Below are positions 12,689-61,925 of a stretch of 64,000 nt of DNA, piece by piece (position 1 is the stretch's first letter; each line of letters opens with the position of its first letter). The stretch lies in contig CM072335.1 of assembly GCA_036874045.1 (NCBI GenBank), positions 12,482,001-12,546,000 of the forward strand, read 5' to 3'. Both the position numbers and the translations under genes were made by a program. This DNA comes from Cymodocea nodosa. Taxonomy: Eukaryota > Streptophyta > Magnoliopsida > Alismatales > Cymodoceaceae. A model generated the notes under the pieces. That model worked only from the letters and a program-made list of their open reading frames with translations, did not search any database and was not told where the DNA came from.

Positions 12689-12695
12689 AGTTTTA

Positions 12696-12710: not shown

Positions 12711-12759
12711 AGAATTGAATTGAATTGAGTCGAAGTGAATTGAATTGAATTGAGTTAAA

Positions 12760-13255: not shown

Positions 13256-13274
13256 CTGTAGCTAAGACCTAAAA

Positions 13275-13322
13275 TTAGAAAAACTCCAGAAGGAAGTAGA
13301 TGAATTTAGGCATAGAGATTAA
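13275..13322 (+). pseudogene. Last codons of the env-position ORF (Gypsy A)
   Basis: These bases match the end of the Gypsy B env-position ORF (KLQKEVDELRHRD-stop). The remaining about 2.2 kb of that ORF is absent, so a deletion joined spacer X directly to its tail. Confidence 0.8.
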
Positions 13323-23495: not shown

Positions 23496-23889
23496 TGTTT
23501 AGAATGAAAAAGTGCATATTATTAACGGTTCAATGATGGTTAATTGCATAATATTTAGCTTATCATATGAGAATTAAGCTATTATGTTATAATTGCACTG
23601 TTATATGCTTTAATTGAAGAATCTGCTTAATTTTGGGGAATTAATGTTAATTTAGTACATTTATGAACTGTCGGTAAATTGCAGGCTGTGAAATTCTTAA
23701 GTATCCGAAAATGCATCTAAGTATCGGATAGTTATACCTATAACTCTCCGGAATGTTATTTTATGTTTAAACTACTGCTGACACGTGTTAAGAGCTGGTA
23801 GATTTACTTATGTTATAACTTGTTAAGTTAGTATAACTGCACGCGTTTAGTTACATGAAAATACACTAAGGCAACGTGTTAGGTTAGCG
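23496..23889 (+). repeat. Gypsy B 5' LTR fragment with internal deletion
   Basis: It starts TGTTTAGAATGAAAAAGTGC, exactly as the full LTRs do. It follows them to about 23708, loses about 230 bp at an ATCCGA repeat, resumes, and stops at GGTTAGCG. There it joins gag-C sequence that lies well inside an intact element. The LTR tail, PBS and zinc-knuckle segment are therefore deleted. Confidence 0.88.
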
Positions 23890-26800
23890 AATTGCAAAAT
23901 ATACAACAAACAGAAAACACAAATGTAAGAGAATTTAAAGAATGCACTTTAAAACTAAAAACAATGGAAGATCATAATCACGAAAATGATATACAAAAAC
24001 ATCATGAAAGTAACAAAAATCTGGAAGATGTATGTGTAACATTAAGATCTGGAACTGATATACCACCAAGAACTCAAAATGAAAATGATATGAAAGTGGA
24101 CAAGAGTAAAAATCAAAATGATAATGAAAATGTAATAGCTGAAAATCTAGAAATCACCAAAGAACAATTTGAATCTGCAATTGAAGCTAAAAATGATCAA
24201 ACAAATCAACTAAAAGAAAAAAAGTCTTTGAAATCAAAATCTTTAGCACCCTATCCTGAAAGATTACAACAAACAATTCCTGAAAGACAAGAAAAAATAA
24301 GAGAAATTTTTGAAAAAGTACAAGTTAACATTCCTTTGTTAGATCTATTGCAGAATATGCCACCTTGTGCTAAATTTCTGAAGGATTGGTGTACTAAGAA
24401 AAGAGAGCGAAAAGTTCTTAGAAAGGTCTCTTTAGCTGAGCAAAGTAGTTACCTATTTCTGCCACAAATTCCTAAAAAGTTATCTGATCTTGGAATCCCT
24501 GTTATATCATGCATCATAAGAAATACCATTCTAGAAAGAACCTTAATAGACTTAGGTGCAGGTATAAATGTTATGTCAAGTGATATATTTGCATCCTTAG
24601 GATTAGAAGGCTTAACTCGTACTAGTACGGTTATTCAATTGGCTGATAGAAGTATAAGATACCCTAGAGGAAAAATAGAGGATGTCTTAATTAAAATCAA
24701 GAATTTTATATATCCTATTGATATTGTAATTTTGGATTCCCAACAAATTAAGCATAAAAATAGTGATACATCTTTACTTTTGGGAAGGCCATTTTTAGCA
24801 ACATCAGGGGCTGTTATAAATTGTAAAACTGGAGTAATGAAGTTAGCATATGGTAATGATGATACTCAATTAAATATTTTCAAACCAGAAAGGTTTTAGG
24901 AGTTAGAAATGTCCTTACATACCATAGACTTTTTAGAGGATGAAGGAGATATGTTAGATGATGTGATTCAAGAAGAATTAAATAGGCAAATCAATTCTGA
25001 AACTTTAGAAGAAAGTGAAAGCATAAATATAAAAGGAGATCAGGAGAAATTAATTTAAAAAATGATGATGTTCAATTAGGAGCTCTAGCTTCTGATGGGC
25101 AGCATTTAGAATTAAAACATTTACCTCCTGAATTAACCTATATATTTCTGGAAGATAAACGGACCTGTCCAATCATTATTGCTTCATATTTGAAAGAGGA
25201 TCAAATAGCTAAATTAAAAGAGGTAATAAAAAGTTATAAAGAAGCAATAGGATGGACTATGACTGATATAAAAGGGTTAAGTTCAACTTTATGCTGTCAC
25301 CACATATATTTAGAAGAGAATGCTAAACCTGTTAGAATTCCTTAGAGGAGATTAAATCCAAACCTTAAGGAAGTAGTCAGGAAGGAAATAGTTAAATGGT
25401 TAAATAATGATATAATATATCCGATTTCTGATAGCTCGTGGGTTAGTCCAATCCATGTAGTTCCCAAGAAATCAAGATTAACAGTTATTAGGAATGAAAG
25501 TCAAGACTTGATACCTACTAGAATTCAATCAGGCTGGAGAGTATGTATAGACTATAGAAAGATGAATGTTGTGACTAGGAAAGATCATTTTCCCTTACCT
25601 TTTATAGATCAAATGTTGGAAAGATTAGCAGGGCAAGAATATTTTTGTTTCCTAGACGGGTATTCAGGGTATAATCAAATTCCAGTAGCATTAGAAGATC
25701 AAGAGAAAACAACTTTCACCTATCCTAATGGAACTTATGCTTTTAAAAGAATGCCATTCGGATTATGCAATGCACTAGCTACCTTTCAAAGGTGTGTGCA
25801 GGGCATATTTACTGGAATGACTGATGAATTTTTAGAAATATTTATGGATGCTTTTACTGTATATGGAAACTCATATGAAGTGTGTTTAAGCAATTTAGAC
25901 CAAATATTAAAACGCTGTGTGGAAAAAAATCTGGTTTTAAATTGGGAAAAATGTCACTTCATAGTTAAACAAGGAATAGTCTTAGGGCATGTTATTTTTA
26001 AAAAAGGGTTGGAAGTAGATAAAGCTAAAATAGAAGTAATTTCTAATCTACCAGAACCTAAATCAGTAAAAGATATTAGATCATTTCTAGGACATGCTGG
26101 TTTTTATAGAAGATTTATTAAAGACTCTAGCAAGATAGCTAGACCTTTAACTAATCTATTAAAAGATGTTTTATTTAACTTTGATAAAAATTGCAAGGAA
26201 GCATTTTTTAGACTTAAGACTAGCTTAATTTCAACTCCTATAATTCAAGCACCTAATTGGAACCATCCATTTGAATTAATGTGCGATGCTTCTGATTTTG
26301 CTGTAGGAGCAGTGTTAGGATAGAAAATAGAAAAATCTCATAGAGTGATTCATTATGCAAGCAAAACCTTAAATGATGCTCAAGTTAATTACACAACTAC
26401 TGAAAAAGAATTATTAGTTGTTGTGTTTGCTTTAGAAAAGTTTAGATCATATTTGATTGGAGCTAAAGTAATAGTATACACGGATCATTCAACTCTAAAA
26501 CATCTAATAAAGAAAAAAGAAACTAAACCTAGATTGATCCGATGGATATTATTATTGCAAGAATTCGATCTAGAAATTAAAGATAAAAAGGTTGTGAGAA
26601 TGTAGTAGCAGATCATTTACCAAGATTACAAATAGAAAAATCAAATATTGAAATTAAGGATAATTTTCCTGATGAACAATTAATGACCATCAACACAATG
26701 CCTTGGTATGCAGACATAGTTAATTACTTAGTTACTGGTTTAAGACCTAAGGATTGGAATAGACATGATAAGAAATTGTTTTTCTCAAGAGTAAAATATT

Positions 26801-28005
26801 ACTATTGGGAAGACCCTTACTTATTTAAGAAATGTCCTGATCTGGTTTTAAGGAGGTGTGTTCCAGAAACTGAATATTCGAGCATATTGTCTTTTTGTCA
26901 TGACCAAGCTTGTGGAGGACATTTTGGTTCAGGGAAAACTGCTACAAAAATTCTGCAATGTGGGTTTTATTGGCCAACACTATTCAAAGATGCTCATAAA
27001 TATTGCTTAAGTTGTTTAAGAAGTCAACAAATAGGAAGAATATCAAAGAGGAATATGATGCCTCTTAATCCTATTGTTGAGGTTGAAATCTTTGATGTGT
27101 GGGGAATAGATTTTATGGGTCCATTTCCTATATCTAATCAATTTAATTACATATTGTTGTGAGTGGATTATGTATCTAAATAGATAGAAGCTATTCCGAC
27201 AAAAACTAACGATAACAAAGTGGTAATACAATTTATAAGAACAAATATATATGCCAGATTTGGAATACCTAAAGCTATTATCAGTGATAGAGGAACTCAT
27301 TTCTGTAATAGAAGTTTTGAAGCCTTAATGATGAAATATGGAGTAAACCACAAAATTGCAACATCATATCATTCGCAAACAAGTGGACAAGTAGAAAGTG
27401 CAAACAAACAAATTAAATTAATCTTGAAAAAAGTAGTAAATCCTACTAGAACATATTGGGCTAATAGATTGATTGATGCACTTTTGGCTTATAGAACTGC
27501 TTATAAAACGAGCTTAGGTATGTCACCTTTTAGGCTAGTATATGGAAAAAGTTGTCATTTTCCTGCTGAAATAGAACATAAAGCTTATTGGGCATTAAAA
27601 ACTCTGAACACTAATTTAAATCAAGCTATTGAAAATAGGAAAATGCAACTAATTGAATTAGAAGAATTTAGAAATGAAGCTTATTCAAAGACTATAAGAG
27701 AAAAAGAGAAAATGAAATTCTAGCATGATAGAAAAATTATTCCTAAAAACTTTGAAATAGGACAAGAAGTACATCTTTATATGGCTAGACTCCATAACCA
27801 TCCAGGAAAATTAAGATCTAGATGGGCAGGACCTTACATAGTTCGAAATGTTTATCCTTATGGAACTATTGAAATTGAAAATCCTAAAAATCAAAGTATA
27901 TTTAAAGTAAATGGACAAAGACTTAAACCTATTCTGAAAACACCAAAAAGCTCCTTTGGAATTATAGAAGAAATCAGAGTAGAGGACTACTCGAGTTTTA
28001 CTTAG
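23890..28005 (+). pseudogene. pol: Gypsy B gag-C/pol: protease, RT, RNase H, integrase
   Basis: A Ty3/gypsy-order polyprotein. The gag C-terminus shows VTLRSGTD, LAPYPERL and KFLKDWCTKKRER. Protease has LIDLGAGINVMSSD, with DLGAG for the usual D-S/T-G-A. RT shows WRVCIDYRKMN and YSGYNQIP, but the catalytic block reads FMDAFT: the second Asp is Ala at 25850-25852, so this RT should be dead. RNase H includes [18 protein letters not shown] and VYTDHS. Integrase has a damaged zinc motif (CLSCLRSQQ, with Ser for Cys), [26 protein letters not shown] and a C-terminal RWAGPYIVRN chromodomain-less GPY module. Stops include TAG for CAG at about 26321 and TAG for TGG at about 27181. A one-base loss in an A run near 26588 shifts the frame. 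The upstream start is missing. Confidence 0.9.
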
Positions 28006-28500
28006 CAATAAATCAGTTTTTATGTTTATATATATATATATATATATATAAACATTAAAAATATATATAAAACATAAAAATAGTTATGGTTCAGCCGACT
28101 AGATCCATCTGTATGGCCGGAAAATTAAAAAGTATTTAGGTTTGACCGAAGCGTAGCATCGGTATGACCAGAACATTAAAAAAATATTGGTTTTACCGAA
28201 GCATAGTATCGGTTAAATCGGAAAAAAATTGTATATTAATTTTCAGAAAAAAATTTTGTTTTACCGAAACATAGTATCTGTTCAACCGAAAGAAAGATAA
28301 AAAAATAAAAAATATTTAGGTTTGATCGAAGCATAGTATCGGTTAAACCTGTAAAAAAAAAAAAAAAAAAAAGAAACAGAAAAACTACTCTCTGTAATAT
28401 TTTTATTATTATATTTGCTTGTACGGGGAGTCCGTTGAGTTACGCTTAACTCAACGAGCTTACTCCGTTAAGTCTTGAGTTAGTCAACGAGCTTAGTGCT
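28006..28500 (+). repeat. Spacer X of Gypsy B
   Basis: A TA run is followed by AAACATTAAAAATATATA and repeated ATCGGTT/ACCGA hairpins (CATAGTATCGGTTAAA-type units), an A20-like run near 28349, and a perfect palindrome CGTTGAGTTA-CGCT-TAACTCAACG at 28433-28456. It separates pol from the env-position ORF. Confidence 0.75.
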
Positions 28501-28604: not shown

Positions 28605-30824
28605 ATGATGAAGATGACGCCTGAATTCTGGGAAGATGTTGATACATCAGAATTTCTGAAGGAATCAGAAGAGTGGCACACGCGGTAGAAGATTAGAAAT
28701 ACGACAAGAGAGAGAGAGCTACAGAAGGTAGAATCAGAACTTTTCAAGTTGAGAAGAGATTTAGTAGATATGGATATACGAATACCTCAAATAATGGAAA
28801 CACGAATCAGAATAGCAACATAAATAGCTGTAAGTAAGGAAAGACAAATAAGGCCAAGTAATGAAGTTGCCCTAGAATTAATCCAGCGTAAGTCCCGACT
28901 CTGGTTCAAAAGACGAATCTGTAGACAAGCTAAACGGGTGATCTGGGAGCAAGAAAGGAAAGCAAATGAAGAGGCAACTGAAGAACGGGAGGAACCAACT
29001 GCTGAAAGACCTGTTCCTGAGGAGCAGCAGTCTGGACCTTCAGTTCCACCATTTAAGCCATTGACACAAGCAGAAATGATGGGGCCTTCGACTGAAGAAG
29101 AAATAAGAGAATTTGTAGAACTGGTTCAAGTTGGAAAAAACCAAGGAGAATCAGAAGATTTGGCAGTGGCTAAAGCACATCTGGTGTTTGATGCATTGTA
29201 CAAAAAGAGGGCTGCAGAAAAGTTGAAAGCCCAATATAAAATTAAAGTGGAACAACATCAAGAAGCTACTGCCAGAACTGCTGTTAGAGATGCTGCAAAA
29301 GAAGCTGAAGCTGGTCCTTCGAGACCAGCAATTATTGGAAGAATTAAACAGGAAGAGCCAGTACCTGTGGTTCGAAAGCCTGCAGAGCCTATTTTTGTAG
29401 ATTTAATTTTAGAAGATGAAGAGGAAGAACACGCACAACTAATCAGAAAAAAGAAAGAAAAAGAAAAAGTGCCTGATTATAGAGAAATTAAATCTGAAGT
29501 ACCAATTTTTACAGGACCTGTGGAGCAGATTTTTATTAACCTTCTATCTGAATCTAAGGAGGAGCAGGAGGAGCAAAGAAAAGAAAAAAATCAGGCTGAA
29601 ATTAGTTTGCAGCCTGTACAAGAAGAAACAGAAATTAGGGCAGAAACTGAATTGCTTGTGACTCCATCCCAATCTGTTACAGAATCAGAAAGAACAGTAA
29701 CAGAACAGATTGGTAGTCAGGAGGAAGAAGAAAGAGTAGAAAATGAAGAGGCTGAAAGAAGCCATTTGGACAAAAATAATTTCACAGATTCCATTGAAGA
29801 GCAAGAAACTCTTCAGCAAATTATGGAAAGAATTCAAGACAGAGTGGAGAGTTCTACCGGCTCACCACCATAGACAGAAGCAAAAGCAAAAATTCAGGAA
29901 TCTGAAGAGAACGTCCAAATGCAGCCTATGCTTGAGGAAGAGCAAGAGCAAACCCCTCCGGAGCAACAAAGTCACCTTCCTGACCCGACTGAAACAACAA
30001 TTTTGAATGAAGTACATTTTTGTAGTCAGGAAGCTTATATCAAATACCAAGAAATAAGGGGTTACGATATTATTTACAGTAGACCAGTAAATTGGGATGG
30101 AATGCAAGAAATCAAAGATCTATTTGAATTCCAAGGTCTACTGCAATTTATATCTCAAGATAGAGGGCATGCAGTATATGAGAATTTAGTGCCCTGTTTC
30201 TATGCAAATTTAAGAGAAGGAGAATTAATTTCAAACGTGGAGGAAGCTGATGTACAGATAACACCAGAGCTTCTCTACAACATATTTGGTTTAAAGAATG
30301 AAGGAACAAAAATTTTGGAGGATACAACTGCAGTTGAATGGACTGAGCAACAAATTAAGGATTGTTTAGCTATCAATCCTAGTATGCCATTATTAAATAG
30401 ATTGAAGCATTTAAATGGTAAAGCACACATGATAGCTAACATTCTGATTAAGAATGTCTATCAACGACAGGGCCATGACATAGAATTAAGTCAATTTGTC
30501 AAATGGGCCACGTATGCAGTTGTAAATAAGATCCAAATAAATTGGTCTGCAGTTTTTATCTCCAAGCTGAAAACAGTAAAAAAGAAATTATTTTATGGAG
30601 ATTTGATTCCACTACTGATGGTGGATAGTATTGATTTCACTAAATGGACATCAAAAAGGATAAGATCTAGAACCATTTCAATGAAAGAATACAGAAATTT
30701 TGTAGCTACAGAATTAGTTGTACCTTCTGGAGAAATTGCAGGAGCAGTAGAGAGGATAAATCAATTAGAGCAGCAATTAGAAAAACTCCAGAAGGAAGTA
30801 GATGAACTTAGGCATAGAGATTAA
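28605..30824 (+). pseudogene. Large acidic env-position ORF (Gypsy B)
   Basis: One frame of 740 codons from ATG 28605 to TAA, interrupted by TAG (28686), TAA (28821) and TAG (29871). Gypsy D still has sense codons at the first two. The N-terminal half is Glu/Lys-rich, low-complexity and coiled-coil-prone. Two hydrophobic strings followed by acids, PIFVDLILEDEEE (about residue 261) and QIFINLLSESKEE (about 307), look like SUMO-interacting motifs. The C-terminal part (about residues 470-660: NLVPCFYANLREGE, ITPELLYNIFGLK) resembles the plant retrotransposon 'putative plant transposon/ATHILA ORF' type domain. A terminal helix RINQLEQQLEKLQKEVDEL may be a coiled coil. There is no signal peptide or convincing membrane segment, so an envelope role is not supported. 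Confidence 0.7.
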
Positions 30825-31541: not shown

Positions 31542-33114
31542 ATGCACGTTGCAAGAACGTGTCTTGCAATGAGATTTATTCACTTTATGGATGCGCAGTA
31601 TATATATGAAACAGAATGTTATTTACGAGTTACCAGCAATTTTAAGAGAAAGGAGAAAGCATTGGAGGAACTGGAAGGAGAAGCAGCTAATTCAACCTTC
31701 ATCCGACAACAAATATTTATAGAATGGAAAGCTTCAGACTGGTATGTAATTAATCTTTTGTTATTTATTTATGAGCACATGGACTCGTTCTCTAAGCACT
31801 AAACGATTAGTAAGAATAGCTATCCAGGAATTTTCATTGCAGAGGGGTACTGAAAAAATTTCTGAACTGAACTTTAACGAAATTCTTTGGGGTGTAGCTA
31901 ACCTTTCTTTAAAAGAGAACGTAGAGATGGCTGCTCCAATAGAAAAACCATTAGGAGAGATTCTGTATCCTGAATTAATTGATGAACATTCATGTATTCG
32001 ATTGCCAAACTTTGAGGGAGATAGGTTTGAACTGAGATCTAATTATATTAGTCAATTGCCACATTTTCATGGATTAGAAAGAGAGGATGCCTATTATTTC
32101 CTTAGAGAATTTAACAAAGTTTGTCAAATGATAAGAATGCCGAACATGAGTATAGATGCTATTAAACTTAGATATATCCCTTTTGCTTTAAAAGATACAG
32201 CTAAGAGATGGTTATATACTCTGTCACCTGATTCAATTTCTACATGGACTAAATTTTACTCTGTTTTTCTGGAAAAATACTATCCAACACATCAAACGAT
32301 TAAAAAGAAGAAAGAAATATTAATGTGTAGCCAAAAACAGGGTGAATCATTTTGGAAATATTTTGAAAGATTTAAAGATTTACTAACTCAATGTCCACAT
32401 CATGTAATGAGTAAAGCACAATTAATAGGCATAATTTATGAAGGCATAGATGTTTCAACGAAATCTTTATTAGAATCTACTTGTCAAAATGGATTTTTAA
32501 AATTATGTAGTGAAGAAGCATGGGCATATTTAGAAAATTTTGCAAAAAGAACTGCATAGTGGGAAAATTCGGCTGAAGCTATTGCAGATAAAAGATTATT
32601 GCCAAGAGGAATGCATGAAATAGATTCCAATACTATGCTTGAGGTGAAATTAAATGAATTAACAAAGAAAATAGAAGAGTTATCATTAAATCAAAAGCTA
32701 GCAAAAAAGAATACAAACATAAATGACTTAGATGTTATTTATGCTAGAAACCAGAGAGATAACTTGGGAAATTCTTATAATCCTAATTGGAGAAATCACC
32801 CGAATTTATCTTGGAGAAACAACAATTTCCAGGGAGGAGAAAATATAAATGAGAAGAACATAAGTTATGAAGTATTAATTGAACAAGGAGCTAGAATAGA
32901 GAAATTAGAAAAGATAATCCAACAAGTAAACAATCGTCTAGAATTTATATTTGGAAATACTGCAAATCAAAATCAGAATAGAAATATATCACTTAGATAG
33001 AAGGAACCAATGGAAGTTAGACCTACTAGAGGATTGCCAATACAAGCTATACCTAATCCTGTCAATAGAACGGTTAATGAAATTGAAACCTCTTTTGGGA
33101 GGGTAGCTGAATGA
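31542..33114 (+). pseudogene. gag: Capsid gag ORF with intron, downstream of pol (Gypsy B)
   Basis: This is the capsid half of an Athila-type gag. Exon 1 is 31542-31741 (starts MHVARTCLAMRFIHF, rich in basic residues and KEKALEELEGEAA). A GT-AG intron of 103 bp (31742-31844) joins in frame at a Trp codon to exon 2, 31845-33114. Exon 2 carries family strings FELRSNYISQLPHFHGLERE, AKRWLYTLSPDSISTW and GESFWKYFERFKDLL, then YNPNWRNHPNLSWRNN. It lacks the CCHC knuckle, which sits at the start of the pol block instead. TAG codons at 32557 and 32998 replace CAG seen in Gypsy D. Finding capsid after pol and after the env-position ORF is contrary to the usual gag-pol order. Confidence 0.8.
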
Positions 33115-33300
33115 AGCAGCATATCTGAAGCAACTATCTGTATGTATATATGTTTTATTTTAAGTTAATGGTATCGTAGAGTTAATTTTTAACTCAATGA
33201 ACTTAGTCTGTTGAGTTATGCCTTAACTCCACGAGGATGTAGTAGTTATATTAGTTTTTGTCTCTGCTAAATTTTTGTTTTTATTTTACAGAATCGACAA

Positions 33301-34438
33301 ATGGAATTAATGCAATTACCGTTGGATGCACTAAGGGAAATACTAAGTAACTTGTCAGCTAAAGATCTGTGCAGGCTGTGTTGTGTATCAAAGGAAATTA
33401 GACTATATTGAAGAAAAATATTTTCAGGGATTACAAGCTGCAAAAATGACTAAGATTAGAGATGGATTCATACGGAGGTCATTTAATCGTAGTTTAAATA
33501 CCCATGAATATCTGGCTATGGAAGAAACTACTGGAATTCCACCCAATGCATTAGAAGGAATGAATCATATTATGGGGATAGATGAAGGATTAATCATATA
33601 CAAGACGAGACCAAGGTATGCAAGTTTATCATTACCTGATATTTTGATAAGAAATCCTATAACAAGAGAATAATGGAATATAGGAAGACTTAATAGATTT
33701 GAAGCACCAACTATAAATTGTGGGTCAGCTTTAATATTTTCTGATAAAAATTCTGTAATTTCTGAAAAATTATATTATTGGAGACCTACAGGAAATTGGG
33801 GTGAAGATTTACGCTTAAGTGTGTATAATTTTCTGAACAGATCTTGGAATGAAAACATTATAATATATCTAGGACAGAAATCATTAATTAACCAAACACA
33901 TGTCATACTTGATGGATATATCTATTTAGTCACAGAGATATCATTAGCATATGGATCTGATTTATACATAGTGAGCATAAACAATTATGATGATTATATA
34001 GAAATTTTACCTGTACCGAGTGAAATAGCTAAACCACCATTTGCAGAATTTAATGAAATTCAAATAGGAATGTGGTATAATGAAGAAGATGATCCTACTT
34101 TATGTCTGATAAGATCGTGGGATGAACTGATGAAATTTCAAATATGGATTATGGAAGACATGAAGGAATGGAAGTGGGAAGAGGTGTATATTGAAATAGA
34201 TGTAGAAATAGAAACTGCTACATTACCCTGGAACCAAAAAGGATCCCTTTATGCATTACATATCATTAATGGTAATACACTCGTATTTGGAATTTATAAT
34301 ATATTACATGTTTACAAATTAAAAAGGAACATGAACTGCATTAAAACAGAATTAATAGCAAGAAGAACTATGCCTAAAAAGTTTGCTTGGACTAATACAT
34401 TTATTTCATTTGTTTCTACTTTTCAATCATGTTCTTAA
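33301..34438 (+). pseudogene. Captured F-box/FBA gene (Gypsy B)
   Basis: From ATG 33301 the protein starts MELMQLPLDALREILSNLSA, followed by KDLCRLCCVSKEI: an N-terminal F-box, the SKP1-binding module of SCF ubiquitin ligases. An F-box-associated (FBA-type) region follows, with IRNPITRE, INCGSALIFSDKN and NGNTLVFGIYNILHVYKL. A 2-bp loss near 33398 shifts frame and a TAA at 33671 replaces GAA; otherwise the frame runs to TAA 34436-34438 (about 378 residues expected). A likely 5' UTR intron, 33140-33291, has GTATGT and TTTTATTTTACAG ends and separates it from the capsid stop. The gene sits in the same place in Gypsy D, so it was replicated by the element. Confidence 0.85.
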
Positions 34439-34884
34439 GCTGTGATTTTGTGTGTTTAACGTGTGTATTCTGCATTTATTTTTAGAAAAAAAGAAGAAGG
34501 AATTTTGAAGTTTTTCATGTTCATTTTATAATAAAAAAAAAACAAACAAACAAAACAAAATATCAATCCAGTTTGTTGGTATTTGTTCTGGGAAACCAAT
34601 TGGCTTGCTTGTGAGCCACCAAAGGCATAGGAGTCTGGGTTCCACACAAGACACTGATTTATTAATATCTGTTAAATGTTATTTTGTTTTATATTCTGTA
34701 TTTATCTGGGAATGAAAAGTTTTTCAGAATCAAAAATCGGAATATGCAGAAAGAGATACAAATGGAACAAGGTATGTAACCAATTACTTATCCTGAATTT
34801 TAAATCAAACAAAACTTTATTCATGCTTGCTACAATTACTGTACTTATTGTCAAATCTTTTACATTGAAGACAATGCAAAATGT

Positions 34885-34900
34885 AGGTATGGGGGGGAGG
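34885..34900 (+). other. Internal polypurine tract
   Basis: AGGTATGGGGGGGAGG follows GACAATGCAAAATGT, a context common near the 3' end of plant Athila/Tat elements. The same tract is present in Gypsy C (about 40206-40224) and D (50296-50312), 1.3 kb before the terminal tract. Confidence 0.6.
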
Positions 34901-36188: not shown

Positions 36189-36203
36189 TAGGTATGGGGG
36201 AAG
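36189..36203 (+). other. Terminal polypurine tract
   Basis: TAGGTATGGGGGAAG directly precedes the TGTTTAG start of the 3' LTR, the position of the plus-strand primer. Confidence 0.88.
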
Positions 36204-38282
36204 TGTTTAGAATGAAAAAGTGCATATTATTAACGGTTAAATGATGGTTAATCGCATAATATTTAGCTTATCATATGAGAATTAAGCCATTATGTTATAA
36301 TTGCAATGTTATATGCTTTAATTGAAGAATCTACTTAATTTTGGGGAATTAATGTTAATTTAGTACATTTATGAACTGTCGATAAGTTGCAGGCTATGAA
36401 ATTCTTAAGTATCCGAATTTTCTGTTATTTCGGACAGTTATGTTTAACATACCGAACAAATTCGGACAGTTATGTTTAACAGACCAAATATGTATCAGAT
36501 AGTTATGTTTAAATTGCCAAACAGTTATGTTTAGAGAGAATATTTTATTATTTCCATATGTACACGTGTCGAAACCAGAATGAATGTCTTAAGTGAATTT
36601 TCTGTGAGTTAGCTGTAACTATCTGAAAATGCATCTAAGCATCGGATAGTTATACTTGTAACTCTCCGAAATGTTATTTTATGTTTAAACTGCTGCTGAC
36701 ACGTGTCGAGAGCTGATAGATTTACTTAAGTTATAACTCGTTAAGTTAGCATAACTATACGCGTTGAGTTACATGAATATACACTAAGGTAACGCGTTAT
36801 GTTAGCGGCTTATTTTTTTATTGCATGTATTTTATGCACGTGTTGAATTTAAATGCTTTAGAATATCACGTGAGATGCACATGTTTAACTCGTTAAGTTA
36901 GCATAACTGCACGCATTGAGTTACATGAATATACACTAAGGTAACGCGTTAGGTTAGCGGCTTATTTCTTTATTGCATGTATTTTATAGTTATTTTCTAA
37001 AATGCCACTGTAGCGGTTGCAGGGACAGACAGTTGGAAGGAAAAACCACATTTGCACGTATCACGTAGGAATTCATTCGCACACGGAGAAGGAAGGAAAT
37101 CCAACCGATCATTCAAGTAGAAGCAGTTACTACTGAAGAAATATAAAAGAAAAGAAGAAAAAAAGGTGTGATTGATGGACGGCCAGTGTATACAAAGGAG
37201 GAGCACCAAGCTTTCTGCAGACAGTATCGGCGATTCTCCGAAGTATCACACCAACCATCATTATCACCACTATAATCACCAATCATCGGAGGTCTGTGAG
37301 GATACTTGCCTGATGTCGGGTCGATTCTTAGCCAAACACAGTGTCTGACAACCACTGTGAGGAGTGATCACGTCGCGGGAAGGGAAGACATTTTCACCAA
37401 GCACCGACTCATATTTTAGGAGATCGTAAAGCTTTTAGCCTTGGCTTCGGGTTGATGCCTGTATGCTGAAGAGGTGATCATCTTGCAATTCTAGACTCGT
37501 GATTCTATAGGGAGAGGAGACAGAATTGTAAGTGGTTTAATTTTCAGTGGTGTAATCGCGTTGCAAGTAGTGTCGGAAGTATTTACTATCAAGTTAGATT
37601 ACTTTACATTTCACCTTTCACCCATTTCCATGTTCACATCGAAACAAAAATACCAAAAACAATTTATCTTTGTTTGTATGTTGTATTGTTTGTGTTGTAT
37701 CGTGATTAATGTTATCTGTATCAGTTTTATGATTGTTTTATGTTAGTTTTAATATACAGTTTACTGAAATTGGTTTGTACAAAAAACTTAAAGATTTTAA
37801 TGGTGACTATTTGAATCATCTGAATGTTAGTATTGCTTAATGATAAATCCAATGTTAACTAGCATTAAAAAGCTTAATTGATGTTATTTACAATCTGTGG
37901 AATCGCCCAATGGTTGGCCGAATTCCTTTGTAAATAGCAATATTATAAAGAAGAGACAAGCTCGTGGAGTTAACTTAAGTCCACGAGGATAGTCCGTTGA
38001 GTTAGCCATAACTCAACGAACTAATAAATTTGAATTGTTCATAATCAAACATTTCTTAAATTCGTCAGCAATTCCCTATGGGATCGACCTGTACTTGCAC
38101 ACTGATACAATAGACACTGTGCACTTGTAGTTAAAGTACAAATTGGAATTAATATCTAAATTGTATTAAAGGTTGTTTGTTTACTTCTAAAAGAAAGAAT
38201 AGGCATAAAGATAAATTAACTAAGTAAAAATAGAAGTAACAAATCCAAGTTTTTCTAGTGTAGTGCTGGGAAAACCCAAACA
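36204..38282 (+). repeat. Gypsy A/B 3' LTR
   Basis: TG...CA termini, 2079 bp, followed by TGCAT. By the shared target duplication it is the right LTR of Gypsy A. It differs from the 5' LTR at scattered sites and small indels, including a loss near 37097 and one near 38025. A palindrome CGTTGAGTTA-GCCA-TAACTCAACG lies at 37995-38018. Confidence 0.92.
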
Positions 38283-42097: not shown

Positions 42098-42489
42098 GTA
42101 ATCAATCACATACTTTTTTTTTTGTATCTCCATTAATATCTTCTGACTTTTGATTTTGAAAAACTTTTCATTCACAAATAAAAGTAAAATATATAACAAA
42201 ATAACAACTAATAAAACATAAATTGTTAAATAAGTGCCTTGTGTGGAACCTAGACTCTTATGCCTTTAGTGACTCAAAAGTAAGCTAGTTGGTTTCTCAA
42301 AATAGATACCAACAAACTAGATTGATATTTTGTTTTTCCTTTTTCTTGTAAGATAAATAAAATAGAAACTAAAAGTTTTTTTTTTTAAATGTAGAATACA
42401 CACAACATTAAGAATACAAAATCACAATTTAAGAACATGATTGAAAAGTAGTGACAAATGGAATAAACGTGTTAGTCCAAGCAAAACCT

Positions 42490-46747: not shown

Positions 46748-48982
46748 TGTTTGGTTTTACCCAGCACGACACTAGAAAACCTGATTGGATCTCCAACAAC
46801 ATACCAAAAAAACTTGGATTTGTTAACTTCTGTTTTTACTTAGTTAATTTATCTTTATGCCTATTCTTTTTCTTTAGAAGTAAACAAACAACCTTTAATA
46901 CAAATTAGATATTAATTCTAATTTGTACTTTAACTGCAAGTGCACAGTGTCTATTGTATTAGCGTGCAAATACAGGTCAATCCCATAGGGAATTGCTTAA
47001 GAATTGAGAAATGTTTCATTTGTTAACAATTAAATTTATATCTTCAATAAGCCCTCCATTGAGTTACAGTTAACTTAACGGACAAAGTTTGTTGAGTTAT
47101 GGTTAACTCAACGGACTAACCTCGTGGACTTAAGTTAACTCCACGAGCCTGTCTTTTCCTTTTAATACTGCTATTTACAGAGGAATTTGGCCAACCATTG
47201 GACGGTTCCACAGATTGTAAATAACATCAATTAAGCTCTTTAATGTTAGTAAACACTGGATTTATCATTAGGCAATACTAACATTCAAATAATTCAAACA
47301 GTAACCATTAAAATCTTTAAGTCTTTTGAACGAACCAATTTCAGTAAACTGTAAAACTAAAACAAACATAAATCAATCACAACACCGACAAAGATAACAT
47401 TAATCACGATACAACACAAACAATACAACACTCAAATACAAAATACAAACACAGATAAGTTATTTTTGGTATTTTTGTTTTAATATGAACATGGAAATGG
47501 GCGAAAGGTGAAATGTAAAGTAATCTCAATCGATAGTAAATACTTCTATCACTACATACGACGCGATTACACCATTGAAAATTAAACCACTTACAATTTT
47601 GTCTCCTTTCCCTATAGAATCGCGAGTCCAGAATTGCAAGATGATCTCCTCTTCAGCATATAGGCATCAACCTGAAGCCAAGGCTAGAAGCTTTACGATC
47701 TCCTGAAATATGAGTCGGCACTTGGTGAAAATGGCTTTCCTTCCCGCGACGCGATCACTCCTTACAGTGGTTGTCAGGCACTGTGTTTGGCTTGGAATCG
47801 ACCCGACATCAGGAAAGTATCCTCATAGACCTTTGATGGTTGGTGATTATGGTGGTTATAGTGGTGGTAATGATGGTTGGTGTGGTACTTCAAGGAATTG
47901 CCAATACTATCTGTAGAAAGCTCGGTGCTCCTCCTTTGTACACATAGGCCATACTCATTGATCACACACCCTTTACTTCTTTTTCTTCTTTTCTTTTATA
48001 TTTCTTTAGTGGTAACTGCTTCTACTTGAATGGTCAGTTGGCTTTCCTTCATTCATATCAACGACGATGATTTCTTCTCCCTTCGACAAGTGAATTCCTG
48101 TGTGATATGTGCGATCGTGGTTTTTCTTTCCAACTGTCCTGCTTCTACAACTGCTACAGTGGCATATTAGAAAATAAATAGTCCGTGGAGTTACAGATAA
48201 CTCAACGGACTTGCTTCGTTGATTTAACTATAAAACACGTGCATAAATTTAACTATCCGATGCTCAGGTGCATTTTGGATACTTACAAACTTAACTATCT
48301 GATGCCTAGATGCATTTCAGATAGTTACAAATAACTCACCGATATATAACTTAAGTAAATCTACCAAATCTCAACACGTGTCAACAATAGTTTAATAATA
48401 AAAGAAACATTTCGGAGAGTTACAAGTCTAACTATCCGATGCTCAGATGAATTTCAGATAGTTATAGATAACTCACCGAAAATCCACTTAAGTCACTTTC
48501 CTAGAACATGACACGTGTCCACAGCTATTTTATAAATAAAAGGATATTTCGGAGAGTTACACATATAACTATCCGATACCCAACTGCAATTTCGGATAGT
48601 TATAGATAACTCACCGAAAGTTCACTTAAGTCATACGTTATGGTTTTGACACATGTACTTCAGGAAATAATAAAATATTCTTTTAAAACATAACTGTTCG
48701 ACAGTTTAAACATAACTATCCGATACATGTTTAGTATGTTAAACATAACTGTCTGAAATATCAGAAAATTTAGATACTTAAGAATTTCACAACCTGCAAC
48801 TTTTTGACAGTTCAGAAATGTACTAAATTAACATTAATTCCCCAAAATTAAGTAAATTCTTTACTTAAAGCTTATAATAGTGCAATTATAACATAATGGC
48901 TTAATTCTCAAATGATAAGCTAAATATTATGCAATTAACCATCATTTAGCCGTTAATAATATGCACTTTTTTATTCTAAACA
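46748..48982 (-). repeat. Gypsy D 3' LTR
   Basis: 2235 bp with TG...CA termini; the polypurine tract follows at 48983-48996 (read on the minus strand). It is closely similar to the other LTR from 61917. Compared with Gypsy A it carries an extra segment near the terminus with CTGATTGGATCTCC. Palindromes lie at 47058-47081, 47090-47113 and 48184-48207. Confidence 0.92.
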
Positions 48983-50776: not shown

Positions 50777-51913
50777 TTAAGAACATGATTGAAAAGTAGA
50801 AACAAATGGAATAAATGTGTCAATCCAAGCAAACTTTTTAGGCATAATTCTTCTTGCTATTAATTCTATTTTAATGCAGTTCTTGTTCCTTCTTAATTTG
50901 TAAACATGTAATATATTATAAATTCCAAATACAAGTGTATTACCATTAATGATATGAAATGCAGAAAGGGATCCTTTTCGATTCCAAGGTAATGTAACAG
51001 TTTCTATTTCTACATCTATTTCAATATATTCCTCTTCTCACTTCCATTCATTTATGTCTTTCATAATCTATATTTGAAATTTCATCAGTTCATCCCACCA
51101 TCTTATCAGACATAAAGTAGGATCATCATATTCATTATACCACATTCCTATTTGAATCTTATCAAATTTTGTAAATGGTGGTTTAGCTATTTCTCTCGAT
51201 ATAAGTAAAATTTCTATATATTCATCATAACTGTCTATGCTCACTATGTATAAATCAGATCCAAATGCTATTGATATATCTGTGACTAGATATACATATC
51301 CATCAAGTATGACATGCATGTTGTTAATTAATGATTTATGTCCTAGGTATATCATAATATTTTCAGTCTAAGATCTATTCAGAAAATTATACACATTTAA
51401 ACGTAAATCTTCACCCCAATTTCCTATAGGTCTCCAATAATATAATTTTTCAGGAATTGTAGAATTTTTATCAGAAAATATTAAAGCTAATCCACAATTT
51501 ATAGTTGGTACTTCATATCTATTAGGTCTTCCTATATACCATTCTTCTCTTGTTATAAGATTTATTATCAAAATATTAGGTAATAAACTTGCATACCTTG
51601 GTCTAGTCTTGTATAAGATCAATCCTTTATCTATCCCCATAATATGATCTATTCCTTGTAATGTATTGGGTGGAATTCCAATAGTTTCTTCCATAGTCAG
51701 ATATTCATGGTTAATTGAACTACGATTAAATGACCTCCATATGAATCCACCTCTAATCTTAGTCATTTTTATAGCTTGTAGTCTCTGAAAATATTTTTCT
51801 TCAATACAGTCTTTAATTTCCTTTGATACACAACACAGCCTGCATAGATCTTTAGCTGACAAGTTACTCAGTATTTCACTTAGTGCATCCAACGGTAATT
51901 GCATCAATTCCAT
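50777..51913 (-). pseudogene. Captured F-box/FBA gene (Gypsy D)
   Basis: A single 378-codon frame from ATG 51913 to TAA 50777-50779. F-box at residues about 4-40 (LPLDALSEILSNLSAKDLCR, CCVSKEIKDC), then FBA-type blocks ITREEWYIGRPNRYE, INCGLALIFSDKN and LVFGIYNILHVYKLRRN. F-box proteins recruit substrates to SCF E3 ligases through SKP1; FBA regions usually bind the substrate. Only three stops break it, all at Trp codons (NRSW to TAG at about 51370, FQIW to TAG at about 51070, EWKW to TGA near 51030), and all are G-to-A changes. There is no frameshift, so it was probably intact at insertion. The acceptor TATACAG just before the ATG region is conserved with Gypsy B. Confidence 0.87.
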
Positions 51914-52100: not shown

Positions 52101-53673
52101 TCATTCAACTACCCTCTCAGAAGAGGTATCAATTTCATTAACAATTCTATTAATAGGGTTAGGTATTGCTTGTATTGGCAATCCTCCAGTAGGTCTAACT
52201 TTCATTGGTTCCTTCTGTCTTAGTGGTATATTTCTATTTTGATTTTGAATTGCAGCATTTCCAAATACAAAATCTAGACGATTGTTTAATTATTGGATTA
52301 TCTTTTCTAATTTCTCTATTCTAGATCCTTGTTCAATTAATAATTCATAACTTATATTCTTCTCATTTACATTTTCTCCTCCCTGGAAATTGTTGTTTCT
52401 CCAAGATAAATTCGGGTGATTTCTCTAATTAGGATTATAAGAATTTCCTAAGTTATCTCTCTGGTTTCTAGCATAAATAATATCTAAATCATTTATGTTT
52501 GCATTCTTTTCTGCTAGTTTTTGATTTAATGATAACTCTTCTATTTTCTTTGTTAATTCAGTTAATTTCACTTCAAGCATAGTACTTGAATCTATTTCAT
52601 GCATTCCTCTTGGCAATATTTTTTTATCTACAATAGCTTCAGCTGAGTTTTCCCACTGTGCAGTTCTTTTTGCAATGTTTTCTAAATATGCCCATGCTTC
52701 TTCACTACAAAGTTTCAGAAATCCATTTTGACAAGTAGATTCTAATAAAGATTTCATTAAAACATCTATGCCTTCATAAATTATACCTATTAATTGTGCT
52801 TTACTCATTGCATGGTGTGGACATTGAGTCAGTAAATTTTTAAATCTTTCAAAATATTTCTAGAATGATTCACCCTGTTTTTGGCTACACATTAATATTT
52901 CTTTTTTCTTTTTAATCGTTTGATGTGTTGGATAATATTTTTTCAAAAAAATAGAGCAAAATTCAGTCCATGTAGAAATTTAATCAAGCGATAGAGTATA
53001 TAACCATCTCTTAGCTGTGTCTTTTAAAGAAAAAAGGGATATATCTAAGTTTAATAGCATCTATACTCATGTTTGGCATTTTCATCATTTGACAAACTTT
53101 GTTAAATTCTCTAAGAAAATAATAGGTATCCTCTCTTTCTAATCCATGAAAATGTGGCAATTGACTTATATAATTAGATTTCAATTCAAACCTATCTCCC
53201 TCAAAGTTTGGCAATCGAATACATGAAGGTTCATCAACTAATTCAGGATACAGAATTTCTCCTAATGGTTTTTCTACTAGAGCAGCCATTTCTACATTCT
53301 CTTTTAAAGAAAGGTTAGCTACACCCCAAAGAATTTCGTTAAAGTCCAATTCAGAAAATGTTTCAGTACTCCTCTACGATGAAAATTCCTAGGTAGGTGT
53401 TCTTACTAATCGTTTAGTGCTTAGAAAACGAGTCCATGTGCTCATAAATAAATAACAAATGATTAATTACATACCAGTCTGAAGCTTTCCATTCAATAAA
53501 TATTTGTTGACAGACGAAGTCAAATCAGCTGCTTCTCCTTCGAGTTCCTCCAATGCATTCTCCTTTCTTTTAAAAGTGCTAGTAACTCGTAAATAACATT
53601 CTATTTTATATATATAATGAACATCCATAAAGTGAATAAATCTCGTTGCAAGACACGTTCTTACAACGTGCAT
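52101..53673 (-). pseudogene. gag: Capsid gag ORF (Gypsy D)
   Basis: Counterpart of 31542-33114. Exon 1 starts at ATG 53673 (MHVVRTCLATRFIHF) and has a one-base loss before the donor. The 103-bp-type intron keeps its GTATGT donor and AG acceptor. Exon 2 has FELKSNYISQLPHFHGLERE, then damage in the AKRWLY region, then an open stretch (52808-52425) with AKRTAQWENSAEA and YNPN. It retains CAG where Gypsy B has TAG at two sites. There is no CCHC knuckle in this ORF. Confidence 0.78.
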
Positions 53674-56719: not shown

Positions 56720-57143
56720 TTTCCCAAACCAACTATTGCTCTCTCATCCGTAGTCTTAGCTACAGTACTCCATTGAGTTACAGTTAACTCATCGGAATAA
56801 GCTCGTTGACTAACTCAAGACTCAACGGAGTAAGCTCATTGAGTTAAGCGTAACTCAACGGACTTCCCGTACAAGCAAATATAATAATAAAAATACTTAA
56901 GATAATAGTTTTTCTGTTTTTTTACCAATTTAAACGATACTATGTTTCGGTCAAACCTAATTTTTTTTCCAATTGAACTGATACTATGTTTCAGTAAAAC
57001 CAATATTTTTTTTTTTCTGAAAATTAATATACATATTTTTTATGTTCCGATCATACCGATGAATCCAATCGGTTGAACCTCAACGATTTTTATATTTTAT
57101 ATATATATATTTTTTTTTTATAAACATAAAAACTGATTTCTTA
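56720..57143 (-). repeat. Spacer X of Gypsy D
   Basis: Counterpart of 28006-28500, with ATACTATG/GGTTTTAC hairpin repeats in reverse and palindromes at 56771-56794 and near 56838-56861. Noncoding. Confidence 0.72.
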
Positions 57144-60100
57144 CTAAGTAAAGCTCGAGTAGTCCTCTACTCTGACTTCTTCTATAATTCCAAAGGAGCT
57201 TTTTGGTGTTTTCAGAATAGGTTTAAGTCTTTGTCCATTTACTTTAAATATATTCTGATTTTTAGGATTTTCTATTTCAATAGCTCCATAAGGGTAAATA
57301 TTTCGAACTATGTAAGGTCCTGCCCATCTAGATCTTAATTTTCCTGGATGGTTATGGAGTCTAGCCATATAGAGATATACTTCTTGTCCTATTTCAAAGC
57401 TTTTTGAAATAATTTTTCTATTATGCTAGAATTTCATTTTCTCTTACAGTCTTCGAATAAGCTTCATTTCTAAATTCTTCTAATTCAATTAATTGCATTT
57501 TTCTATTTTTAGTAGCTTGATTTAAATTAGTGTTCAGAGTTTTTAATGCCCAATAAGCTTTACGTTCTATTTCAACTGGTAAATGACAATTTTTTCCATA
57601 TACTAGCCTAAAAGGTGTCATACTTAAGCTTATTTTATAAGCAGTTTTATAAGCCCAAAGTGCATCTATCAATCTATTAGCCCAATCTGTTCTAGTAGGA
57701 TTTACTACATTTTCTAAGATTAATTTAATTTGTTTGTTTGCACTTTCTACTTGTCCACTTGTTTGCGGATGATATGATGTTGCAATTTTGTGGTTTACTT
57801 CATATTTCTTCATTAAGGCTTCAAAACTTCTATTACAGAAATGAGTTCCATTATCACTGATAATAGCTTTAGGTATTCCAAATCTGGCAAATATATTGGT
57901 TCTTATAAATTGTATTACCACTTTGTTGTCATTGGTTTTTGTAGGAATAACTTCTATCCACTTAGATACATAATCCACCCCCAACAATATGTAATTAAAT
58001 TGATTAGACATAGGAAATTGACCCATAAAATCTATTCCCCACACATCAAATATTTCAAACTCAACAATAAGATTAAGAGGCATCATATTCCTCTTTGATA
58101 TTCATCCTATTTGTTGACATCTTAAACAACTTAAGCAATATTTATGAGCATCTTTGAATAGTGTTGGCCAATAAAATCCACATTGCAGAATTTTTACAGT
58201 AGTTTTCCCTGAACCAAAATGCCCTCTACAAGTTTGGTCATGACAGAAAGACAATATGCTCGGATATTCAGTTTCTGGAACACACCTCCTTAAAACCAGA
58301 TCAAGACATTTCTTAAATAAGTATGGGTCTTCCCAATAGTAATATTTTACTCTAGAGAAAAATAATTTCTTATCCTGTTTATTCCAATCATTAGGTGTTA
58401 AACCAGTAACTAAATAATTAACTATGTCTGCATACCAAGGTATTGTGTTGATGGTCATTAATTGTTCATCAGGAAAATTATCCTTAATTTCAATATTTGA
58501 TTTTTCTATTTGTAATCTTGATAAATGATCTGTTACTACATTCTCACAACCTTTTTTATCTTTAATTTCTAGATCAAAGTCTTGTAATAATAATATCCAT
58601 CGGATCAATCTAGGCTTAGTTTCTTTTTTCTTTATTAAATGTTTTAGAGCTAAATGATCCGTGTATACTATTACTTTAGCTCCAATCATATATGATCTAA
58701 ACTTTTCTAAGGCAAACATAATAGCTAATAATTCTTTTTCAGTAGTTGTGTAATTAACTTGAGTATCATTTAAGGTTTTGCTTGCATAATGAATCACTCT
58801 AGGCGATTTTTCTATCTTCTGTCCCAACACTGCTCCTATAGCAAAATCAGATGCATCACACATTAATTCAAATGGATGGCTCCAATCAGGTGCTTGAATT
58901 ATAGGAGTTGAAATTAAGCTAGTTTTAAGTCTAAAAAATGCTTCCTTGCAATTTTTATCAAAGTTAAATGAAACATCTTTTAATAGATTAGTTAAAGGTC
59001 TAGCTATCTTGCTAAAATCATTAATAAATCTTCTATAAAAACCAGCATGTCCTAGAAATGATCTAATATCTTTTACTGATTTAGGTTCTAGTAGATTAGA
59101 AATTACTTCTATTTTAGCTTTATCTACTTCCAACCATTTCTTAGAAACAACATGCCCTAAGACTATTCCTTGTTTAACCATGAAGTGACATTTTTCCCAA
59201 TTTAAAACCAGATTTTTTTCCACACAGCGTTTTAATATTTAGTCTAAATTTTTTAAACAGACTTCATATGAGTTGCCAGATAAAGTAAAATCATCCATAA
59301 ATATTTCTAAAAAATCTTCAGTCATTCTAGTAAATATGCCTTGCATACACCTTTGAAAGGTAGCTGGTGCATTGCATAATCTGAATGACATTCTCTTAAA
59401 AGCATAAGTTCCATTAGGACAGGTGAAAGTTGTTTTCTCTTGATCCTCTAATGCTACTGGAATTTGATTATAACCTGAATACTCATCTAGGAAATGAAAA
59501 TATTCTTTCCCTGCTAATCTTTCCAACATCTGATCTATAAAAGGTAAGTGAAAATGATATTTCCTAGTCACAACATTCAGCTTTCTATAGTCTATACATA
59601 CTCTCTAGCCTGATTGAATTCTAGTAGGTATCAAGTCTTGACTTTCATTCCTAATAACTGTTAATCCTGATTTCTTGGGAACTACATGGATTGGGCTAAC
59701 CCACGAGCTATCAGAAATCGGATAAATTATGTCATTATCTAACCATTTCACTATTTCCTTCCTGACTACTTCTTTAAGATTTGGATTTAATCTCCTCTCA
59801 GGAATTCTAACAGGTTTAGCATTCTCTTCTAAATATATGTGGTGACAGCATAAAGTTGAACTTAACCCTTTTATATCAGTTATAGTCCATCCTATTGCTT
59901 CTTTATAACTTTTTACTACATCTTTTAATTTAGCTATTTGATCCTCTTTTAAATCTGAAGCAATAATGATTGGACAGGTTTGTTTCTCTTCCAGAAATAT
60001 ATAGGCTAATTCAGGAGGTAAAGGTTTTAATTCTAAATGTTGCCCATCAGAAGTTAGAGCTCCTAATTGAACATCATCATTTTCTAAATTAATTTCTTCC

Positions 60101-61760
60101 TAATCTCCTTCTATATTTATGCTTTCAATTTCCTCTAAAGTTTCAGAATTGATTTGCTTATTTAATTCTTCTTAAATCACATCATCTAACATATCTCTTT
60201 TATCCTCTAAAAAGTCTATGGTATGTAAAGACATTTCTAACTCCTCAAACCTTTCTGGTTTGAAAATATTTAATTGAGTATCCTCATTACCATATGATAA
60301 CTTCATTACTCCAGTTTTACAATTTATAACATCCCGTGATGTTGCTAAAAATGGCATTCTCAAAATTAAAGATGTATCATTATTTTTATGCTTAATTTGT
60401 TGGGAATCCAAAATTACAATATCAATAGGATATATAAAGTTTTTGATTTTAATTAAAACATCCTCTATTTTTCCTCTAGGATATCTTATACTTCTATTAG
60501 CTAATTGAATAACCGTACTAGTAAGAGTTAAGCCTTCTAATCCTAAGGATGTAGATATATCACTTGGCATAACATTTATACCTGTACCTAAGTCTATTAA
60601 GGTTCTTTCTAGAATGGTATTTCCTATGGTGCATGATATAACAGGGATTCCAATATTAGATAACTTTTTAGGAATTTGTGGCAGAAATAGGGAACTACTT
60701 TGCTTAGCTAAAAAGACCTTTTTAAGAACTTTTCGCTCTCTTTTCTTAGTACACCAATCCTTCAGAAATTTAGCACAATGTGGCATTTTCTGCAATAGAT
60801 CTAACAAAGGAATGTTAACTTGTACTTTTTCAAAAAAATTTCTGATTTTTTCTTATTTTTTAGGTATTGTTTGTTATAATCTTTCAGGATAAGGTGCTAA
60901 AGATTGTGATTTAAAAGATTCTTTTTCTTTCAGTTGATTTGTTTGATCATTTTTAGCTTCATTAGTAGATTTAGATTGTTCTTCAGTGATTTCTAGATTT
61001 TCAGCTATTACATTTTCATTATCATTTTGATTTTTACTCTTATCCACCTTCATATTATTTTCATTTTGAGTTATTGGTGGTATATCAATTCCAGATCTTA
61101 ATGTTACACATACATCTTCCAGATTTTCGTTACTCTCATGATGTTTTTGTATATCATTTTCGTGATTATGATCTTCAATTATTTTTAGTTTTAAAGTGCA
61201 TTCTTTAAATTCTCTTACACTAATATTTTCTGTTTGTTGTATATTTTGCAAATTATGCAGGTCTATAACATTATAATTTTCATTGTCGTGTTGTATAACT
61301 TGTATTTTCATTGTATATTCGTCCAATGCTTTTAGTTTTCTTTCCAAATCATCTAATCTCATTGCATTCAATTTTTGATCAATTTTCATTATGGTTTTTT
61401 CAGTTTCATAAATTATATCCTTTTTAGGTTTTGAATATGCTTCCTTATAATTTAATTGGTTGACTTCTTGTTGCTGACACATAAAGTATTCTAGTTTATC
61501 TAGGTTTTGCTCTATACTACGCTCTAGTTTGTCATACCTATCCCAAACTTCAGTGTCTCTCAACATATTACACATTCTATACTAACCATCAGTTGGGTAA
61601 ACAATAGGATTCTCATACTCGACTCTATTATACTAAGGATAATTCATTTGTTGTTCATGGTATCTAACCATCTGCAAACGTCTCAATTTCAATCAGTCAG
61701 AAATGTCGTGTCCTTCAGAATTGCAGAATTCACATATGCTAATTACAGGTTTCAGAAATC
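57144..61760 (-). pseudogene. pol: Gypsy D zinc knuckle/pol polyprotein
   Basis: In element order: a CCHC knuckle CEFCNSEGHDISD at about 61690-61734, whose last Cys codon is a TGA; coiled-coil-like DKLERSIEQNLDKLE; VTLRSGID, LAPYPERL and KFLKDWCTKKRER; protease LIDLGTGINVMPSD; RT YSGYNQIP and an intact catalytic FMDDFT; RNase [23 protein letters not shown] and TDHLSR; and integrase with intact [35 protein letters not shown] and RWAGPYIVRN. From 61575 to 57421 it stays in one frame, interrupted by stops such as CAA to TAA after PERL, TGG to TAG in the WRVCIDYRK block and CAA to TAA after KNLD. One frameshift near 57421 separates the GPY module. It is the best-preserved gypsy pol here. Confidence 0.9.
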
Positions 61761-61864
61761 TTTAAGTATAAGCATATGCCATATTCTCAATTACAGAAGA
61801 AAACACACTCTGGCTATTAAAACGAAACAGCTCTAACAGTTGCTTATATTAATTCAATTCCCTA

Positions 61865-61925
61865 GCAACGGCGCCATAAAACTTGTTTGGCTCCCCGGCA
61901 ATGGCACCATAAAACTTGTTTGGTT
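61865..61925 (-). other. Duplicated primer-binding site and LTR edge
   Basis: GCAACGGCGCCATAAAAC and GCAATGGCACCATAAAAC, each followed by TTGTTTGG, lie 33 bp apart. The copy next to the LTR (PBS 61892-61909 on the minus strand) complements tRNA-Asp with about two mismatches. The inner copy (61861-61876) is the better match over its shorter length. Confidence 0.8.

Follow-up and report, generated by a model that had tools for sequence, protein, structure and literature searches.

An F-box reading frame lies inside a long terminal repeat (LTR) retrotransposon of Cymodocea nodosa, which raises the question of whether the frame is a chance neighbour of the element or a part of it and, if a part, how it would be expressed and what it might do. 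The stretch analysed here, called the window, comprises 64,000 nucleotides (assembly GCA_036874045.1, contig CM072335.1, positions 12,482,001 to 12,546,000, forward strand). It holds two related elements, element 1 on the plus strand and element 2 on the minus strand, each with a copy of the F-box open reading frame (ORF; Table 1). Our analysis indicates that a Ty3/gypsy-type retrotransposon family has probably taken up an F-box/FBA (F-box-associated)-type gene as a permanent component and expresses it through a spliced subgenomic RNA, as retroviruses do for env; we assign a probability of roughly 0.7 to this combination of family cargo and spliced expression. Excision of an intron places a short coding exon directly before the F-box, and transcripts spliced in this way have been reverse-transcribed and inserted in the genome; unspliced RNA would give gag. 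A gene of a regulatory type has persisted while the family amplified greatly, and the genome preserves a record of its own splice logic. The initial annotation, made from the letters of the window, had proposed the capture of a host-type F-box gene; the gag-containing intron, the spliced copies and the position of gag behind pol go beyond it.

The F-box ORF recurs with the element across the genome

The genome (375 Mb in 28 contigs) was searched with three F-box queries, namely the window copy (element 1), the copy at a further locus (L003) and the second window copy (element 2), and the best 40 of 3575, 3913 and 4585 first-look candidates, respectively, were scored. Pooled, the three queries gave at least 94 distinct near-full-length F-box places, a recurrence far beyond chance. 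Identity among the best 40 was 96-100% over nearly the whole query for the element 1 copy (self included) and 94-100% for the element 2 copy, and no place was common to these two match lists. The two window copies, which are 91% identical in the F-box ORF, belong to subfamilies separated by an in-frame 3-base change.

Within the window, the ORF indeed lies between capsid gag and the 3' LTR in two insertions, as first described, and the observation that "Gypsy C" retains the last F-box codons was correct: positions 42485-42138 (minus strand) match 34382-34745 at 78%, covering the final 57 bases of the ORF. Nearly all loci read have the same element surroundings. These surroundings and the number of distinct places refute the explanation that a host F-box pseudogene stands beside the element by chance, and the view that the F-box is replicated with the element holds.

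For reading of individual copies, 56 F-box rows were gathered, of which 43 were distinct. All were picked by similarity to the window copy, so that counts of unbroken or spliced copies among the 43 are not genome-wide rates. Absence from other copies of the family, a possibility that the initial annotation had raised, is not what we found: there are many other copies, and in 6 of the 43 the 379-codon frame is unbroken. One further copy has no internal stop and has lost its final stop, and the remainder are broken. Aligned with an unbroken copy, the ORF of element 1 lacks 2 bases and has one in-frame stop.

An intron containing gag is exactly absent from spliced copies

When fetched pieces were mapped on the window, several copies jumped from position 31741 directly to 33292. 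The segment skipped begins with GTATGT, ends with a T-rich tract and ACAG, and encloses gag. Across the 43 rows, 11 showed the exact splice, one (L054) had used a second donor, one (L018) had other sequence upstream and 30 retained the intron end. The donor GTATGT was present in 21/21 readable rows and the acceptor AG in 28 of the 30 rows with the intron end; element 2 has the same intron around gag, with donor and acceptor retained. As a control, we inspected a further 17 junctions within the family that reflect deletions or variants, placed by BLAST and not slid. None had both GT and AG (two start with GT and one ends with AG), and a splice origin of the pol, ORF X and pre-gag deletions was rejected on this ground.

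An exon-junction probe of 200 bases, taken from L009, was used to score the best 40 of 2956 candidates. All 40 crossed the junction at equal genomic length with 96-100% identity (source included), 39 of them over the full 200 bases and one over 198, showing that the genome holds at least 40 spliced copies, L009 included. The exact absence of the intron from genomic copies implies that the F-box is reached through a spliced RNA which also serves as a template for reverse transcription. Expression from spliced RNA is read here from genomic exon junctions, and the loss of precisely this intron points to a dedicated spliced message for the F-box cargo.

We considered whether the "spliced" copies could instead trace back to a deletion that arose once, in one master element, and was propagated by copying and recombination with no splicing at all. 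Such an origin would fit the ORF-X-deleted background common to 8 of the 11 spliced copies, and an upstream-flank tree built from 31 rows, 10 of them spliced, did not reject a single clade of spliced copies (P 0.099). Against it stand the borders, which are exactly GT...AG with a T-rich tract, the second donor joined to the same acceptor in L054, and the end of ORF X retained in one spliced copy (L004). On the downstream flank (42 rows), moreover, placing the 11 spliced copies in one clade was rejected (approximately unbiased test, P 0.0002). Each tree gave 9 changes of spliced state as a raw count, and both are poorly resolved, with starred inner branches numbering 2 of 39 downstream and 1 of 28 upstream. 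The use of two donors means at least two splicing events. Given this evidence, a single deletion appears improbable and recurrent splicing likely, although recombination between copies may have spread the spliced state.

The start codon in exon 1 reads into the F-box after splicing

The ATG of exon 1 is present in 33/34 aligned rows. In the unspliced window copy, this ATG (31724) opens a frame of 9 codons that ends before gag. Among the 11 spliced copies, the frame of this ATG continues through the junction into the F-box in 10; the eleventh copy has a stop at the junction itself. Of the 10 in-frame copies, one is open to the end (388 codons) and 9 are stopped internally. Upstream of the ATG, TATATATA may be an internal TATA box; the sole row without both it and the exon-1 ATG is a piece of another subfamily.

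Capsid gag lies behind pol

Two LTRs, a primer binding site, a polypurine tract and reverse transcriptase (RT) before integrase were all found, as in Ty3/gypsy elements. Capsid gag, which in Ty3/gypsy elements is upstream of pol, here stands behind pol and ORF X. Between the two LTRs the parts follow one another as primer site, zinc knuckle and pol, ORF X, capsid gag and F-box, and a capsid behind pol and inside an intron is an unusual layout in itself. A zinc knuckle (CX2CX4HX4C) follows soon after the primer binding site and is complete in L013; its last cysteine is a stop in element 2 and its second cysteine is changed in L021. No zinc knuckle was seen in the gag ORF of element 1 (31771..33114). 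With the knuckle before pol and capsid gag alone behind, the nucleocapsid part has stayed with pol.

In a window full of nested and deleted elements, this order might be an artefact of nested insertions. To map it elsewhere, a probe running from the 5' LTR end into pol, zinc knuckle included, was used; 34 of the 40 scored matches (best 40) covered the full query. Of the 39 matches outside the window, 4 had a listed F-box downstream on the same strand at a distance of 8.2-8.8 kb, compared with 8.8 kb in element 2, and one had a listed gag 5.8 kb downstream, the distance also found in element 2. Within 25 kb there were no opposite-strand pairs of this probe with a listed F-box or gag, and three pairs were misfits, one with F-box and two with gag, in that F-box or gag stood upstream of the 5'-end probe. 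These other spacings would suit nested insertions. Such an artefact is nevertheless very hard to reconcile with the order shared by the two window elements over ~12 kb, the similar spacing in 5 further copies and a 2.6-kb ORF-X-to-gag probe that 38 of the best 40 candidates matched over at least 97%, and we consider it highly improbable. The two misfit gag pairs (C1:9109812-9125991 and C1:9632660-9648842) lie 523 kb apart with nearly equal spacings of 16179 and 16182, which suggests a large duplication.

We take the primer-binding-site-like stretch of element 2 to be of tRNA-Asp type, and the look of the gag presumably points to the Athila lineage. The tRNA-Asp type is also suggested by analogy with the passages of PMC1142308 on such sites, where Diaspora and Calypso have a similar one; this resemblance and the look of the gag together suggest Athila membership. 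The LTR pair of element 2 differs by a Kimura two-parameter distance of 0.060 over 2084 sites. ORF X matched PF20167 ("Putative plant transposon protein") at E 3.9e-4, below the cut-off.

The F-box protein and its possible origin

Proteins of the F-box family attach to SKP1, and their targets are recognized by FBA domains. In both unbroken copies tested, the N-terminal F-box domain (Pfam PF00646) scored above the Pfam cut-off of 20.5 bits, at 35.2 and 41.7 bits. The F-box-associated model TIGR01640 (F_box_assoc_1, NCBIfam) matched residues 114-334 of one unbroken copy (E 4.8e-7; 29.3 bits against a cut-off of 37.9), the second unbroken copy (E 1.6e-5) and the open part of the window copy, 33674-34435 (E 7.2e-6).

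Searches for protein relatives gave none for one unbroken copy (E 1e-3) or for an alignment of six rows (E 10), in a database that may hold few plants. A solved-structure search with the F-box protein returned chance-level matches only, and a phage search one chance-level match. The description of the F-box as a host gene captured as cargo stands in one half, replication as part of the element; for the other half, host origin, the two protein searches found no parent. We infer that the gene came from a plant host.

Several results weigh against the reading of a functional, spliced F-box/FBA gene, in addition to the upstream-flank tree. Of the 43 copies, 37 are broken, and codon 51 is the shared end point of 3 of the 11 spliced copies. 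All three TIGR01640 scores, while significant, are below the curated cut-off, and the Pfam FBA domain was not found in the two unbroken copies. The open 254-residue part of the window copy, folded without an alignment, gave no usable fold (predicted local distance difference test, pLDDT, 33). The parent F-box gene was not found among the best 40 genome matches, whose identity of at least 94% marks them as copies of the element. The patterns of F-box substitution described in the following section bear in the same direction.

Selection on the F-box and gag

The F-box might be a passenger, carried and even spliced, with a protein that does nothing for the element; this denies the effector step alone. 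We compared the subfamilies at element-2-specific sites, a single comparison in which one member of the second subfamily, element 2, was read. For the F-box, 56 such sites against 11 copies gave a relative nonsynonymous-to-synonymous ratio (relative N/S) of 1.06, that is, no purifying selection, whereas 42 sites of gag against the same 11 copies gave 0.41 (P 0.0016), indicating purifying selection. Against all 42 copies, the F-box value was 1.10 over 35 sites. With the stricter F-box site set, the two genes differed (28:7 for F-box versus 22:20 for gag; Fisher test, P 0.016). Changes private to single copies were near neutral in both genes, with a relative N/S of 0.98 in the F-box (42 copies), as expected of dead copies, and of 0.79 in gag (11 copies, P 0.13). 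Within the 45 residues of the F-box domain lay 3 of the 56 changes, a number that allows no judgement, and post-insertion decay must account for much of the divergence of element 2. Stop alleles are also shared among the 43 copies (10 in 2-3 copies and 4 in four or more), which either recurrent C-to-T change or inheritance can explain. As weak evidence from one comparison, these values suggest that the F-box is not a strongly constrained protein. The initial annotation had speculated that a functional F-box acted in the element's favour; the sole between-subfamily comparison goes against that idea, in that it shows no purifying selection on the F-box, and neutral evolution since capture was the annotation's own refuting outcome.

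The contrast with gag and the shared stops thus favour a passenger. On the other side, the lineages leading to the two subfamilies preserved the frame, the change that separates the two being in frame, and the splice sites and the in-frame exon-1 start are conserved. Short derivatives without pol or gag still hold the F-box, although all were found by F-box search, and a fast-evolving effector would likewise give a ratio near 1. An effector would work as follows: the F-box protein would bind host SKP1 and form an SCF ubiquitin ligase, which would mark a host factor, perhaps one of silencing, to the element's benefit. This step, taken alone, is tentative, and so is its denial; we consider it about equally likely that the F-box protein is, or once was, a functioning SCF effector and that it is a passenger. 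The fullest version, in which a host F-box gene turned SCF effector, one splice decision would yield either particles (through gag) or a defence-disarming protein, and fast F-box evolution would reflect an arms race and no decay, is unlikely as a whole. With such a family at hand, whether plant retrotransposons carry effectors against their host becomes a testable question.

Relation to known systems

Sense env-like extra ORFs between pol and the 3' LTR are described for plant LTR retrotransposons such as Athila and Bagy2, with a spliced message for Bagy2, in the relevant passages of PMC7264820. The F-box ORF resembles these in position, in strand and in its presence in many copies; unlike them, it encodes an F-box protein, the domains found being F-box and FBA-type, and gag lies within the intron that is spliced out. 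A flax Ty1-copia element has an F-box domain protein between two LTRs, according to the section of PMC5142383 on that element. The likeness is in the F-box domain protein between retrotransposon LTRs; there a single element is described, whereas here a gypsy-type family has splice junctions and at least 94 F-box places. Genomic copies with a splice junction are also seen in SpIREs, the spliced and reinserted human L1 copies, in which, as excerpted from PMC5860796, a long interspersed element is spliced in the 5' untranslated region and ORF1; here an LTR element is concerned, and the splice serves a downstream cargo ORF. BARE, as presented in part of PMC3735527, likewise uses a spliced subgenomic RNA for one element protein, but its splicing favours Gag, whereas here splicing removes gag.

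Some F-box-motif proteins of plant viruses are reported to suppress silencing, and Polerovirus P0 is one of the known viral F-box proteins (PMC6593998, PMC3588083). The common trait would be a parasite-encoded F-box that can engage SKP1, here predicted from sequence alone. The F-box passages of PMC13359793 concern host SFB genes, and term look-ups in portions of PMC7264820, PMC11963269, PMC6317226, PMC13317346 and PMC5408684 returned no mention of an F-box. Neither a family-wide F-box in an LTR element nor a gag within an intron was found in the open-access literature searched.

Derivative copies and other features of the window

According to a passage of PMC1142308, an element could be remade at a single stroke when its spliced RNA is reverse-transcribed, a route put forward there as speculation for env loss. 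The spliced copies described here illustrate how a new type of element can arise from a subgenomic RNA in a single event. Among the short derivatives, L016 runs from an LTR end and leader straight into the spliced F-box, without pol, ORF X and gag; L034 has an LTR piece joined to the spliced F-box; and L017 and L019 are without pol and ORF X. These four were found through the F-box search and are a biased sample. The first gypsy element of the window (10560-14529) is also without pol.

Table 1. Features of elements 1 and 2 and of "Gypsy C", in window coordinates
Feature	Position	Strand	Remarks
5' LTR remnant, element 1	23496..23889	+	Internal deletion
pol, element 1 (protease, RT, RNase H, integrase)	23892..28062	+	Stops present; 94% match to element 2 pol
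ORF X between integrase and gag	28605..30824	+	Stops inside; start approximate; weak PF20167 match
TATATATA, possible internal TATA box	31599..31606	+	~120 bases before exon-1 ATG; in 32/34 aligned rows
End of exon 1 with ATG	31724..31741	+	In frame with F-box after splicing (+9 residues)
GT-AG intron with whole gag ORF	31742..33291	+	Exactly absent from 11/43 distinct copies
Capsid gag ORF, element 1	31771..33114	+	Retrotrans_gag PF03732, E 1.5e-20; 2 in-frame stops
Alternative shorter intron	33140..33291	+	Second GTATGT donor, same acceptor; exactly absent from one copy (L054)
F-box ORF, element 1	33301..34438	+	ATG at 33301, stop ends 34438; broken
Polypurine tract before 3' LTR	36190..36203	+	From sequence
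3' LTR, element 1	36204..38282	+	TG start, CA end
Last F-box codons in "Gypsy C"	42429..42485	-	Low border approximate
3' LTR, element 2	46748..48982	-	
F-box ORF, element 2	50777..51913	-	3 in-frame stops; 3 bases shorter
gag ORF, element 2	52101..53445	-	Frame broken; inside same intron; borders approximate, from repeat register
Zinc knuckle, protease, RT, RNase H, integrase region, element 2	57086..61782	-	After primer binding site
Primer-binding-site-like stretch, element 2	61893..61909	-	Adjoins 5' LTR
5' LTR, element 2	61917..64000	-	Extends past window

A second polypurine-like stretch at 34885-34900, ~1.3 kb before the tract at 36190-36203, may be left over from an earlier 3' end. The first gypsy element contains a copia element (16609-21689) with long open frames of 660, 282 and 792 codons. 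In L022 (positions 16-1638), the start of an F-box element adjoins a gag of a second family (84% identical), and the joint suggests recombination between subfamilies. Finally, a palindromic 22-mer (9 bases, 4 free, 9 complementary) occurs 24 times in the window with at most 3 mismatches, compared with 0.03 expected; its positions include 12392, 13228, 28434, 31277, 31329, 37996, 47091, 53864 and 62260. Eight of the 24 occurrences are in LTRs of gypsy elements and none is in an ORF as placed.
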